Of a stretch of DNA of 64,000 nt, positions 16,154-63,915 are shown piece after piece; the first letter of the stretch is position 1, and every line of letters begins with the position of its first letter. Under the pieces are notes generated by a model. The model did no database searches. It saw only the letters and a list, made by a program, of their open reading frames with translations, and was not told the DNA's origin. The DNA lies in NCBI GenBank assembly GCA_040367435.1, contig BAABWY010000008.1:1-64000 (forward strand). The letters run 5' to 3'. The translations under genes were made by a program, and so were the position numbers. This DNA is from Hyphomicrobiales bacterium 4NK60-0047b. GTDB lineage: Bacteria > Pseudomonadota > Alphaproteobacteria > Rhizobiales > HXMU1428-3.

Positions 16154-16216
16154 GCGCGGATGCTTCTTGCAGATGCTTTGTGGGCATCTAAAACAAAGAG
16201 AAGGCATCTGAAGCGC
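16154..16216. repeat. Nested hairpin repeat: one copy inside the loop of another
   Basis: A 63-bp element. The outer unit has GCGC/GCGC and GGATGC/GCATCT stems extended by TTCTT and AGAA arms. Its loop holds a second unit with GATGC, TTTGTGG loop and GCATC. The arrangement looks like one copy inserted in the loop of another. It lies upstream of the MTA phosphorylase gene. The rest of the 308-nt gap holds AT-rich sequence and the pet terminator. Confidence 0.85.
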
Positions 16217-24981: not shown

Positions 24982-25090
24982 GCGCGGTTGCTAGTGGGTA
25001 ACCTGAAGCGCAACTAAAAAACGCGGTTGCTTACGACGGTTGCTGGTGGGCAACCTGAAGGAGCATTGAAAATAAGCAATCTGAAGCGCA
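24982..25090. repeat. GGTTGC/GCAACC hairpin repeat: one simple and one nested copy
   Basis: A simple unit at 24982-25011 has outer GCGC/GCGC and inner GGTTGC/GTAACC (one G-T pair). A nested unit at 25022-25090 has an outer GCGGTTGCTTA arm pairing with TAAGCAATCTGAAGCGC; its loop contains a complete second unit GACGGTTGC...GCAACCTGAAGGAGC. Each is followed by a linker close to AACTAAAAAA. Compared with the copies at 0.9 kb, both sides of the stems have changed together. The segment sits just past the aldolase stop codon. Confidence 0.88.
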
Positions 25091-31713: not shown

Positions 31714-31955
31714 CAGTCTCTCCTAAATTTAAAAAATATATCCAGCACCGCTCAAATCAGTGAAATTTTTAATGTGAGGGGCCTGTTCATGCTTCCTCCA
31801 GGGGTGAACAGCATGAAAAAGAGGCTTATACCCCCATTAGCACCTAAGTGCAATCTATTTTAGAGGGGGGAGCAGAAAAGTGGTTACTGTTACACCTCAA
31901 AAGCTTTAAGGCATCTAAAGGGAGCAAAATATAGTTTATTATTGAATTCTCATCC

Positions 31956-32156
31956 GAAGAAGGAGTGACACTTCTTCAGCGTCAGAACATGGCAGCTCTG
32001 CTGCCCAGTGCACAAGATCAGTCTGAGCGGAGTTTAGCGAGCGCAGATAAGCTGATCGTAAGAAAAACCACCCCTTAGAAGGCCTGCTGCTATAGCAGCG
32101 CGGATGCTTTGTGGGCATTCGAAGCGCAACTAAAAAAGCAATAGCCCGTGAGAGAA
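31956..32156. repeat. Composite multi-hairpin element, copy 1
   Basis: It begins GAAGAAGGAGTGACA, then hairpin TGACACT/AGCGTCA, then GGCAGC-TCT-GCTGCC, then a GATCAG...CTGATC arm, then the palindrome GCTGCTATAGCAGC (32086-32099), then a simple repeat unit GCGCGGATGC...GCATTCGAAGCGC (32098-32127). It ends AACTAAAAAAGCAATAGC then CGTGAGAGA. Head, central GGCAGC hairpin and tail recur at 48.55 kb and 55.04 kb. It lies between rplY (start side) and the GPR-like gene (stop side). No reading frame in it looks coding. Confidence 0.85.
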
Positions 32157-32172
32157 AAAACACCACTAAAAT

Positions 32173-48441: not shown

Positions 48442-48501
48442 AGCGGAAGCTGGTGGGCATCTGAAGCTCAGAAATGCGGATGCTCGTGGGCATCTGAAGC
48501 T
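48442..48501. repeat. Two hairpin repeat units upstream of composite element 2
   Basis: Unit 48442-48468 (AGCGGAAGC...GCATCTGAAGCT) has an imperfect inner stem; unit 48475-48501 (TGCGGATGC-TCGTGG-GCATCTGAAGC) is intact. Both carry the GAAGC 3' arm. Confidence 0.85.
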
Positions 48502-48546
48502 AAGAAATGTAGATGCTGTGAGCAACCAGCGTATAAAACGATATAC

Positions 48547-48690
48547 GAAGAAGGAGTGACGCTACTTCAGCGTCAGGACATGGCAGCTTGTCTGCCCGGC
48601 GCCTAGCGCCGCCCCTCGGAGGCCCATGAGCTTCAGCTCATGGAGTACCGTGAGAGAAATAGTAAGGTTTCTAGTGGGCATCTGAAGCCG
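48547..48690. repeat. Composite multi-hairpin element, copy 2
   Basis: Head GAAGAAGGAGTGACGC, then perfect hairpins in series: TGACGCT-ACTTC-AGCGTCA (48557-48575), GGCAG-CTTGT-CTGCC (48582-48596), GGCGC-CTA-GCGCC (48598-48610) and CATGAGCT-TC-AGCTCATG (48625-48642). The tail is ACCGTGAGAGAAATA, followed by a degenerate unit to 48690. It ends about 30 nt before the alpha/beta hydrolase start. No gene is seen in the 456-nt gap. Confidence 0.85.
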
Positions 48691-52627: not shown

Positions 52628-52712
52628 GTCTAAAAACAAAAATGATAAAGCAAGAGCGTATCGCACATAAGTTGGCACTAGTGCCTTACGGTTTTGTGGA
52701 ATTGTGGATGCC

Positions 52713-52925
52713 GCGACGGTTGCTAATGCGGATGCTCTGTAGGCATCTGAAGCACAAAAAAGAGCAACCGAGGGGCACTAAAAGCGACGGTTACTTATTG
52801 CGGATGCTCTGTGGGCATCTGAAGCACAAAAAAGAGCAACCGAAGGAGCACTAAAAGCGACGGTTGCTAGTGGGCAACCGAAGGAGCACTAAAAGCGACG
52901 GTTGCTAGTGGGCAACCGAAGGAGC
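52713..52925. repeat. Four-unit array of hairpin repeats, two of them nested
   Basis: Units begin at 52713, 52784, 52857 and 52895, each GCGACGGTT and separated by an ACTAAAA linker. Units 3 and 4 are simple (GGTTGC-TAGTGG-GCAACC, 38-nt period). Units 1 and 2 each contain a GGATGC/GCATCTGAAGC unit in the loop of a GGTTGCT/AGCAACC (or GGTTACT/AGCAACC) stem. A related TGAACC-GAT-GGTTCA hairpin follows at about 52938. Upstream at 52673-52686 is the palindrome GGCACTAGTGCC. The gap to cysE contains no gene. Confidence 0.88.
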
Positions 52926-53178
52926 ACTAAAAAAGAGTGAACCGATGGTTCATGAAATGCGTCAAATAAAGAGACATCAAAAAAATATTACTTTAAAAAT
53001 GCAAGTATGGTCTGTTCGAGTGTTTAATGTTAAAGTAGAGTAAAACCTTATGGCGTGATAATAATATTAGAATTGTGCGTTTAATTGAAAGTAGCTAGTT
53101 GTAAGTCTAGCTATGATGACTATGTAGCTAAGATGATATTTTAGCGGCAAAAGAAATAATAAGAACGGCAGGGTGGAT

Positions 53179-54896: not shown

Positions 54897-55043
54897 ACAA
54901 AGCCCGTGTCTACTCTATTTTTAAGAGACAAACTAAGCTTAAATCATGTATCAGTTTCGCAGCAAAGAATAATTTCGAGAAGATGCTATTGCATTTCAAA
55001 TCAATATTGAATTCATAAAAAAACGCTTCTGAATTACCATAAC

Positions 55044-55252
55044 GAAGAAGGGAGTGCTCTTCTCCAGAGCACGGACATTGCAGCTAGGTGGATGCTTCGT
55101 GGGCATCTGAAACCCAAGAACAAAGAGCGGATGCTTCGTGGGCATCTGAAGCCAAAAAGGCTGCCCGGTGCAGAAGATCAACCCGAACGGAGTAGCGCGG
55201 TTTGACATTGGGCAACCTGAAGCACCATTAAAAAGTAATAGCACGTGAGACA
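55044..55252. repeat. Composite multi-hairpin element, copy 3, with inserted repeat units
   Basis: Head GAAGAAGGGAGTG, then perfect hairpin GTGCTCT-TCTCC-AGAGCAC (55054-55072), which replaces TGACGCT/AGCGTCA of copy 2 by compensatory changes. The following TTGCAGC...GGCTGCC hairpin has two repeat units in its loop: 55087-55114 (outer GGT/ACC) and 55127-55152. Then come GTGCAGAAGATCAACCC, as in copy 1, a degenerate unit 55195-55222, and the tail AGTAATAGCACGTGAGA. It ends just before the carbonic anhydrase gene. Confidence 0.85.
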
Positions 55253-61147: not shown

Positions 61148-63688
61148 TTAAAGCCCACTTCGGTGGCTTTTACCCTTTTTCGTCCGCGTCCCAGGCTTAC
61201 CACCTGAAGAACGGGGCCGTGCTTTCTTAGATAATGTAGTCTTCTTTTTAGGTTTAGATGTCTGCTTAACATCTGAAATCTCATCATTCGCGCCGGATGC
61301 CTCGCCGGTTTCTGGTGGGAAATCTGAAGGCGAACTAACAGAGCCATCTGAGGCGCGCTTTTTTGCGGATGCTTTGTGGGCATCTAAAGCACCACTACGT
61401 GCGGATGTTTCATCCTTAGTAAGAGGTCGTTCAGTAGTAGAAGGACCCATTTCATCAAGGTTATTCTTTTTTAAGCGAGATTTTCGTTTCTTATCAATAG
61501 AAGGAACGGAAAGATCACTGCCAGTAAAACGTTTGGAAAGAGGGTCATTCGCAACCAATAGTTCATGGTCTTTCAATCGCTTAATCTCATCTCTAAGGCG
61601 GGCCGCTTCTTCAAATTCAAGATCTTCTGCAGCTTTCATCATTTTCTGTTCCAGATCTTGCAGCACAGCCTCAAAATTATGCCCAACCGTTGCAACATCA
61701 GCTAGTGGATCATTGTCATTAGACGTCACATCTTCATCATCGTAAAGACTATCAAGAATATCGCCTACATTCTTTGCAACTGTTTTAGGTACGATCCCGT
61801 GTTCGATATTATAAGCAACCTGTTTTTCCCGTCGGCGATCTGTTTCATCAATGGCGCGTTGCATAGAGCCTGTAACCCGGTCAGCATATAAAATGACCCG
61901 GCCTTCAACATTTCTAGCTGCACGTCCAATTGTTTGAACAAGTGATGTCTCGGAGCGCAAAAATCCTTCTTTATCAGCATCAAGAATGGCAACAAGCGCA
62001 CATTCAGGAATATCCAACCCTTCTCGAAGCAAGTTAATGCCAATAAGAACATCAAAGGCCCCAAGACGAAGGTCGCGTATAATCTCAATGCGCTCTAGCG
62101 TATCAATATCAGAATGCATATATCGCACGCGAACACCCTGGTCATGGGCATATTCAGTCAGGTCTTCAGCCATACGTTTGGTTAGCGTCGTGACTAGGCT
62201 TCGATATCCCTGAGCTGCCACTGCTTTACATTCATCAATCAAATCATCAACTTGGGTGCCCGCAGGGCGAATGATTATATCAGGATCCGTTAGCCCCGTT
62301 GGGCGAATGACTTGCTCAGCAAACACGCCATCCGTTTGCTCAAGCTCCCAATCACCAGGGGTAGCCGAGACAAAAGTAGTCGGCGGGCGCATAGAATCCC
62401 ATTCAGCAAACCGCATCGGCCGGTTATCCAGGCAAGAGGGTAACCGAAACCCAAAATCAGCAAGCGTGTGTTTTCTCTTAAAGTCACCACGAAACATAGC
62501 GTTAAGCTGGCCAACGGTAACATGGCTTTCATCAACAAAGACAAGAGCATCATCGGGCAAATATTCAAATAAAGTGGGCGGCGGATCGCCGGGATTGCGC
62601 CCAGTGAGGTATCGAGAATAATTCTCAATGCCAGCGCATGATCCCGTTGCCCCCATCATTTCCAAGTCAAATGAAACACGCTGTTCAAGTCGTTGTGCTT
62701 CAAGGAGTTTGTTGACCTTTTTGAGCTCAGCAAGACGTTCTTGGAGTTCTTGTTTAATACCAATCATAGCTTGGTCAAGTGTTGGCTTTGGTGTCACATA
62801 GTGCGAGTTTGCATAGAGTTTCACACTTTCAAAACTATTGGATTTATGCCCGGTTAAAGGGTCAAACTCTGTAAGGCCTTCAATCTCATCACCAAATAAA
62901 GAAATCCGCCAAGCTCTGTCTTCTAGGTGAGCCGGCCAGATTTCAATCGTATCCCCGCGAACACGAAATGTACCTCTGCCAAAGGCCTGATCATTGCGTT
63001 TGTAATGGAGAGCAACGATATCTGCGATGAGTTGCTTATGCTCAATTCTCTCATTAAGGCTGAGCGGTAAAGTCATTGCTGTGTAGGTCTCAACAGAACC
63101 GATACCGTAAATACAAGAAACGGATGCAACAATAATTACATCATCTCGCTCCAGAAGTGCACGCGTTGCAGCGTGGCGCATCCGGTCGATTTGTTCGTTT
63201 ACACTTGCTTCTTTTTCAATAAACGTATCAGAGCGAGGAACATAAGCTTCAGGTTGGTAATAATCATAATAGGAAACAAAATATTCAACCGCATTATCAG
63301 GAAAGAAGTTTTTAAACTCACCATAAAGCTGTGCCGCTAGAATTTTATTTGGCGCTAGAATAAGAGCAGGCCGCCCGGTTTGCTCAATCACATTAGCAAT
63401 AGAAAAGGTCTTGCCTGTTCCCGTCGCCCCAAGCAATACCTGACTTTGCTCACCTTCAGCTAAACCATCAACGAGCGTTTTAATTGCAGTTGGCTGGTCA
63501 CCCTTGGGAGTAAATTCAGATTGAATTTTAAAAGGCACACCTCCTTCAGATTTAACCGGCCGCTCTGGTCTATGGGGCACATAAGGCGCCAGTCGCTCTT
63601 CATGACAAAGAGGATGTGTATCAAGCAGTGGTTGAGATACTGTCGCAATCTCTGAAGGTTTGGTCTTTATAGTACGTGATTTAGCCAT
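61148..63688 (-). CDS. uvrB: UvrABC excinuclease subunit B
   Basis: An 846-residue DNA-damage recognition helicase of nucleotide excision repair. Walker [13 protein letters not shown], beta-hairpin block [23 protein letters not shown]-like box VFVDESHVT, motif [21 protein letters not shown], and the UVR domain (about residues 640-680). The C-terminal 150 residues are basic, low-complexity and longer than in E. coli UvrB (673). This tail contains an in-frame copy of the hairpin repeat at 61365-61390. The ATG at 63688 is preferred over one 12 codons upstream. Confidence 0.96.
61365..61390. repeat. Hairpin repeat unit inside the uvrB coding sequence
   Basis: GCGGATGC-TTTGTGG-GCATCTAAAGC, nearly identical to the intergenic copies, lies in the non-conserved tail of uvrB and is translated as ALDAHKASA. 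The frame is kept. A partial GTGCGGATG follows at 61399. Confidence 0.9.
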
Positions 63689-63915
63689 GTATAAGAATAT
63701 GGTATGACAGTGGGCTTGAAACAAGAGAAAAATAATAAAAATTGAGAGATTAAACTCTCGAATTTTTCTATTGTTATAGATTAATAAACTGGATCAGATT
63801 TTATAAAAACAAAGGCTGTCATCGGACGTCAAATCATCTAAAATGCAGCTCAAGTCTTAAAGCATATTCAAAAATTTAGGGCCTGAAATTGAAAACAACT
63901 CATAGGGTAGGAATA

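Follow-up and report, generated by a model that had tools for sequence, protein, structure and literature searches.

The window, the whole stretch of 64,000 nucleotides analysed here, comprises positions 1-64000 of contig 8 in a 3.47-Mb Hyphomicrobiales genome (G000) and carries copies of two repeats, which we term S and B. S is a hairpin repeat of about 40 nt that reads GC-GGATGC-nnn-GTGG-GCATCT-GAA-GC and is followed by an A-run; its wider consensus is (A)GYGC-GGWTGC-nnn-GTGG-GCAWCY-(T)GAA-GCRC, again followed by an A-run. The arms covary, GGATGC occurring with GCATCT and GGTTGC with GCAACC or GCAACT, and further combinations are found. The loop GTGG and the bulge GAA are constant although the arms vary jointly, and the loop of simple units is mostly nnn-GTGG or nn-GTGG. 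A relaxed search of 684 kb of G000, of which 143,429 bases belong to no long open frame, yielded 183 S units with 1,179 loop bases. Most of these units (160 of 183) lie outside long open frames, and the A-run is visible as A at places 8-12 past GAA (counted from 0) in 152, 145, 106, 111, and 99 of them, respectively.

In the window, the S units and B copies described here all lie on the plus strand. Two simple S units stand in tandem at 873-947 (cores 880-901 and 917-938) and at 52857-52932 (38-bp period; cores 52862-52882 and 52900-52920), two S-like units in tandem at 48443-48508 (33-bp period; second core 48478-48498), and a simple unit at 24982-25011 (core 24986-25007). Two further S units at 61302-61397 (cores 61307-61328 and 61367-61388) are located within an open frame for UvrB on the opposite strand (61148-63724, minus). 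They fall past the UvrB model match and would thus be translated in a C-terminal tail.

Other S units are nested. At 16154-16216, an outer unit GCGC-GGATGC...GCATCT-GAAGCGC with arms GGATGC (16158-16163) and GCATCT (16204-16209) encloses an inner S at 16171-16192. At 25022-25090, outer arms at 25025-25030 and 25076-25081 enclose an inner S at 25038-25059. Composites similar to the latter are present at other loci, the arrangement at 24980-25103 matches about 120 bp at several of them, and S composites seem to spread as blocks. The nest at 52713-52777 has the outer arms CGGTTGCT (52717-52724) and AGCAACCG (52763-52770) around an inner S at 52730-52751 and is followed by a tandem copy at 52784-52849, with an inner S at 52802-52823 and outer arms GGTTACT (52789-52795) and AGCAACC (52835-52841).

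B is a multi-hairpin element of about 125 nt, for which 34 minimal copies were aligned. Its order is GAAGAAGGAG, hairpin P1, GGACATG, P2, CCGG, P3, CCTCG, P4, and AATAGCCGTGAGAG. For 13 of the 22 pairs of the consensus fold, one or more sequences differ on both sides and still pair; P1 drops out of this fold through misalignment and was seen to covary on inspection by eye. An optional module, ACAAGATCAGCCCGAACGG...GCTGATCG, occupies the P3 loop in some B copies. The window contains a B copy at 31948-32158 whose P4 carries an S unit (32102-32123) on its 3' side, a minimal form at 48539-48660 with S-like units flanking both sides, and a copy at 55036-55251, of which 55036-55113 is a weak model match and the rest was assigned via anchors. 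In this last copy, the P2 arms GCAGC (55080-55084) and GCTGC (55160-55164) enclose two S units (55090-55111 and 55129-55150) in the P2 loop. A scan of the window against Rfam 15 gave no match at the gathering threshold, single copies searched at E values of 5 and 2 returned one irrelevant weak match and none, respectively, and 140 kb contained three matches (a SAM riboswitch, a glycine riboswitch, and a tRNA), none of which overlaps B.

The initial annotation had described complete units inside the loops of others at four places, with outer arms still able to pair, and two units in a hairpin loop of the larger element at a fifth. Units are nested at all five, with two small corrections. The outer arms can pair at the four S-in-S nests it named, those at 52784 with one A.C mismatch, and the two units at 55087-55152 do lie in a hairpin of the larger element, whose arm was given as GGCAGC and reads TGCAGC there. 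When the five places are folded alone as DNA, the structure of lowest energy is the nested one at three; 52784 and 55087 are the exceptions. Compared with 200 shuffles each, the nested fold clearly stands out only at 52713, where 0 of 200 were as good; at the other four places, 11, 40, 55, and 13 of 200 reached it.

S-in-S nesting is not a product of chance. In a sample made up of stretches of G000 and of a related genome, G002, together with 120 loci among the matches listed in named genomes, we found 35 distinct S-in-S nests, none of them with the two units in opposite orientation. Under a tight geometry, 32 of 518 distinct S units were nested, compared with a mean of 4.6 (maximum 8 in 50 trials) after re-dealing of the downstream flanks among units and 0.10 (maximum 1 in 20 trials) after flank shuffling. 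The contrast is smaller without the tight geometry (16 of 248 nested versus 6.95 re-dealt, maximum 12 in 20 trials). A pairing score with a wider geometry found a strong outer stem around 15 of the 183 units in G000 versus 2.0 with shuffled flanks. The 6-nt arms of inner and outer unit are identical in 6 of 32 nests and differ in 26.

The junctions of these nests are biased. The left flank of the inner unit frequently terminates in TG or GTG plus C or CC, and in 22 of 32 nests the base just before the outer 3' arm is a G. This pattern is consistent with an insertion that splits the GTGG of the loop ahead of its final G. TGC, TGT, or TGCC precedes the inner unit in 20 of 30 nests and in 124 of 476 other units (Fisher P 8e-6). 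A single point, GTG^G in the conserved loop, is compatible with most junctions, and the 'about the same internal position' of the initial annotation can be sharpened to this point for most nests. Five of the 35 nests retain the full GTGG on the right side, and hence the junction point is not identical in all of them.

How strongly the loop attracts insertions is a separate question. For random insertion outside long open frames, 1.5 nests are expected in the 684 kb of G000; 10 are seen, or 6 after similar composites are merged, which corresponds to an about four-fold enrichment (6 versus 1.5, P 0.0045). The evidence supports the loop as an insertion point and hints only weakly at a preferred target. 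The self-targeting proposed in the initial annotation is therefore not established: the enrichment is modest, and similar neighbouring units leave room for recombination. Selection could give the same picture if loops merely tolerate insertions.

Comparison with related genomes identifies occupied and empty sites. The entire block at 16154-16216 is absent in G002 and in G004, where the flanks nearly join, and the spacer in G001 is shorter and free of S. The G000 line has thus probably acquired the block; there is no clear target duplication at 16154-16216, nor at any of the orthologous sites aligned. The unit at 24985 is simple in G000 and nested in G002 (locus L170). A second pair consists of a nest (L017) and its simple ortholog (L065), which read GGTTGC-TTTGTG-[39 nt]-GGCAACT and GGTTGC-ATAGTG-GGCAACT, respectively. 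It is the clearest case of the GTG^G junction, and the nest could alternatively be read with GGC repeats. In one orthologous B (L238/L256), G002 has an S unit in the P2 loop, and G000 has an empty P2 loop and an S unit in the CCTCG segment. Taken together, these pairs indicate that inner units come and go. Versions with and without the inner unit thus exist, as the initial annotation had proposed to look for, and a fixed loop site is supported both by the junction bias and by the simple/nested orthologous pairs. At both simple/nested pairs, a second similar unit adjoins, and so gene conversion or unequal exchange could have made them.

At the 52713 locus, G002 has one copy in which the outer 3' arm is kept and the 5' arm is absent, and G000 has the two nests and two simple units. 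We counted 92 S clusters in G000 and 38 in G002 and sought partners within the sampled stretches. A syntenic partner in G002 exists for 35 of the G000 clusters; it has no S in 16 cases, fewer units in 7, the same number in 11, and more in one; conversely, for 26 G002 clusters the G000 partner has none in 7, fewer in one, the same in 10, and more in 8. Turnover of S hence runs in both directions between the species, and the mobility that the initial annotation had suggested is supported by sites at which one species carries S and its relatives have none.

B also houses S units. In G000 and G002, 57 B copies located by an anchor search, which misses divergent copies and counts orthologs twice, hold 18 S units: three in P1, one in P2, five in P3, and nine in P4 and the segment preceding it. 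By reading, 11 of the 18 sit in terminal loops, some with shortened arms. The three units in P1 loops, at L159 (14411, plus), L236 (5137, minus), and L162, are all oriented opposite to B and to the local polarity; as L159 and L162 are orthologous, two of these cases are independent. Polarity is therefore not set by the chromosome alone.

By the wider strict pattern, G000 contains 199 S copies, 97 forward and 102 reverse in the deposited contigs. An order-wide sample gave any strict S in 18 of 397 genomes, with many copies only in two families, f1 and f2. The S-bearing relatives belong to the Hyphomicrobiales and include, among the matches listed, Filomicrobium, Hyphomicrobium, Methyloligella, Rhodomicrobium, and less closely named metagenome-assembled genomes (MAGs). 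The genus-mate G006 has no strict S, and G007 has three. The covariance model of B scored at most 150 candidates per genome, so that its counts are lower bounds: at least 150 matches in G000 and in G002, at least 138 in G001, at least 50, 149, 31, 146, and 26 in G003 to G007, respectively, at least 13 in G008, at least four in G305, and at least one in G259. With the same ceiling of 150 candidates, which makes zeros weak, there were none in G182, G393, G010, G029, G044, and G014. Since G006 combines 146 B matches with no strict S, B does not seem to need S, and the B loops of this genome would provide a natural reference free of strict S. Twelve stretches on 11 viral contigs contain the strict S pattern; phages might carry S along, or host sequence might be part of these contigs. 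Plasmid sequences gave no match to window positions 52700-52950. In the open-licence literature, searches on palindromic elements that nest or favour one strand, and on the repeats of these genera, listed no report of the S family.

Both repeats are strand-polar. Counted per stretch on the A-rich and the T-rich strand, S numbers 178 and 5 in G000, 61 and 4 in G002, 22 and 2 in G003, and 26 and 9 in G008, and shuffled DNA of these genomes yielded 3, 6, 1, and 1 units in total. For B, the anchor search gave 48 and 2 in G000, 27 and 1 in G002, and 15 and 4 in G003, and no polarity in G008 (2 and 2). G008 is a single contig of 4.47 Mb with no strict S on the forward and 28 on the reverse strand; the relaxed finder places 29 of 35 units on the minus strand. 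All 20 samples of G008 had a positive gene-independent GC skew at fourfold sites, which ranged from +0.04 to +0.31 and was weaker in one part of the contig than in the other. The G003 values were negative in 9 of 9 samples of contig 1 and positive in 8 of 8 samples of contig 2. A skew of one sign over G008, and over each of the sampled G003 contigs, is unusual for a bidirectionally replicated chromosome. In family f2, G305 (a single contig) and G182 (the main contig of four) each have a near-zero and a positive part, and thus strict one-sidedness is seen only in G008. G029 and G044 have almost no fourfold skew and hence provide no positive control for a flip. In a GC-skew survey of large replicons, as far as its excerpted text goes, 77 were predicted to replicate unidirectionally versus 13,722 bidirectionally, and the major unidirectional group were secondary replicons of Pseudoalteromonas (PMC7858055). 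For GC skew in Filomicrobium, the open-licence literature yielded a single paper, which concerns another organism.

The polarity of S in G008 is constant across both skew regimes, where a plain leading/lagging rule predicts a flip. It follows the strand asymmetry and does not switch at the expected replichore boundary, in an assembly that is a MAG and possibly has an inverted half. Strict S units of G010 lie on mixed strands within contigs. Two candidate causes or landmarks were rejected. The coding share of the plus strand varies from 0.00 to 0.96 between stretches in which S lies on one strand, which argues against transcription as the cause of orientation. Strict S units are on the same strand on either side of dnaA in G003 and G008, save one in G003, so that dnaA does not act as a flip point.

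A parent element was sought through two Pfam families only. For the Y1/HUH transposase (PF01797), there was no match in G000 and, among 10 further genomes, there were two, both in G002. These two Y1_Tnp genes (L326 and L327) lie close together at C1:11499-15370, near a strict S at C1:8183 whose strand is opposite to that of the other units listed on the contig. Reverse transcriptase (PF00078) was absent from G000 and G002 and matched once each in G001, G003, and G008 among the 10 genomes.

S and B can be compared with several known systems. RIME, which comes from the same order, and BIMEs are mosaic intergenic elements composed of palindromic modules. S and B share this mosaic intergenic build by description, and neither nesting at a fixed loop point nor strand polarity is known to us in RIME or BIMEs. 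IS200/IS605 elements recognise hairpins, are oriented with respect to the lagging-strand template, and are expected to generate no target duplication. S differs from these in that G000 has no PF01797 protein and the polarity does not flip in G008. The target-site duplication of MITEs is not clearly visible at aligned S sites (the L017 junction being readable with GGC repeats), a host reverse transcriptase as for retroelements is found in neither G000 nor G002, and in the stretches scanned neither S nor B has a relevant Rfam 15 match to a known structured RNA.

REPs are short, extragenic, palindromic sequences of high copy number, a description that also fits S with its 199 strict copies. In the excerpted text, GTAG REPs associated with RAYTs occur as single, paired, or clustered units, similar to S, and a single-strand mechanism involving RAYTs has been proposed for them (PMC3733652). 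Unlike GTAG REPs, S nests in its own loop, is polar on one strand, and has no Y1 transposase in G000. It also lacks the GTAG tag, which is found 5' of 3 and 3' of 0 of the 183 units (background 3 and 2). CGTC REPs predominate in alphaproteobacteria, apparently without a dedicated transposase, according to the same excerpt (PMC3733652), but CGTC occurs near an S end on the S strand in 0 of 183 units. Its reverse complement GACG is present on the 5' side of 25 of 183 versus 7 in the background, which we ascribe to the CGAC stem type. Mitochondrial GC clusters, double-hairpin elements, and repetitive hairpin elements are, in the excerpts, likewise hairpins that move, turn over rapidly, and merge their modules (PMC4478555, PMC2800124). 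In the sponge elements, loops change and stems are conserved, whereas in S the stems change and loop and bulge are conserved (PMC2800124, excerpt). The excerpts of the REP papers describe tags, RAYTs, and dimers, and the word 'nested' occurs nowhere in those of PMC12306157, PMC3733652, PMC4478555, and PMC2800124. We classify S as a self-nesting, strand-polar variant of REP/MITE-like elements.

The reading we favour, to which we give slightly less than an even chance, is that S is a non-autonomous mobile hairpin element whose copies would enter intergenic DNA, the hairpin loops of B, and the loops of other S units at GTG^G, with insertion tied to one chromosome strand. The conserved loop GTGG, bulge GAA, and A-run tail combined with stems free to vary suggest that something recognises the folded single strand, which we take to be DNA rather than RNA. 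Nests would then arise by insertion, the outer arms remaining able to pair afterwards. The simplest cause of the strand tie would be that S moves through or into single-stranded DNA exposed at replication, and the putative moving enzyme may act in trans. A simple replication rule is at odds with the reversed S units in P1 loops, the missing flip in G008, and the mixed strands in G010.

The main rival dispenses with a dedicated mover. In this scenario of host recombination or template switching, which we regard as somewhat unlikely, S and B would be hot spots at which gene conversion, unequal exchange, and polymerase switching between similar hairpins of one strand produce both nests and module swaps. 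It accords with the lack of a transposase or reverse transcriptase candidate in G000, with the module swaps in orthologous B, where P4 is replaced by S, with tandem B lost or gained between orthologs, with S arrays that differ in copy number, and with the similar neighbours at both simple/nested pairs; one-strand polarity, moreover, suits a process at the fork. However, presence/absence differences occur at sites where a relative lacks S, and exchange between equal arms predicts neither the prevalence of nests with differing arms nor the biased junction.

Alternatively, S and B might be read directionally by a protein that handles the chromosome, in transport, segregation, or packing. Selection would keep them on one strand, and clusters and nests would be tolerated. 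A polarity this strong and independent of gene direction and skew regimes, the conserved loop and bulge, and the location of most units outside long open frames are in line with such a function, but S appears dispensable in G006, with no strict unit and at least 146 B matches, and in G007 with its three, it turns over rapidly, and its strands are mixed within G010 contigs. We consider this selected function very unlikely. Stepwise elongation, in which outer stems grew out of the sequence flanking a single hairpin and which the initial annotation had named, together with a lack of empty sites, as the observation that would count against mobile units, is hardly credible: several nests do have outer stems longer than 6 bp through T..A pairs adjoining the loop, but the outer parts resemble S with a GAAG of their own (required by the nest search) and a flanking stem, the outer arms are mostly unlike the inner ones, and the simple form is present at orthologous sites.

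If S, as a mobile hairpin element, enters its own loop and other hairpins at one point, folded DNA would be both element and target in this natural system of very small size, and the pairs of occupied and empty sites make the insertion step testable. The larger surprise is the strand polarity, which makes the repeat family a marker of the direction in which DNA is handled; in one chromosome, this direction is constant across the samples taken. Many Hyphomicrobiales bud. One strand of the chromosome might differ from its partner around the whole circle, and a process that runs in one direction round it might account for the skew as well as for the way round in which S and B are inserted, loop-nested S units being its footprints, although we think this quite unlikely; candidates would be largely unidirectional replication or the single-strand passage of a chromosome, e.g., in a budding cell. 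Such a one-way direction, if true, would bear on how Hyphomicrobiales replicate their chromosome or pass it on.
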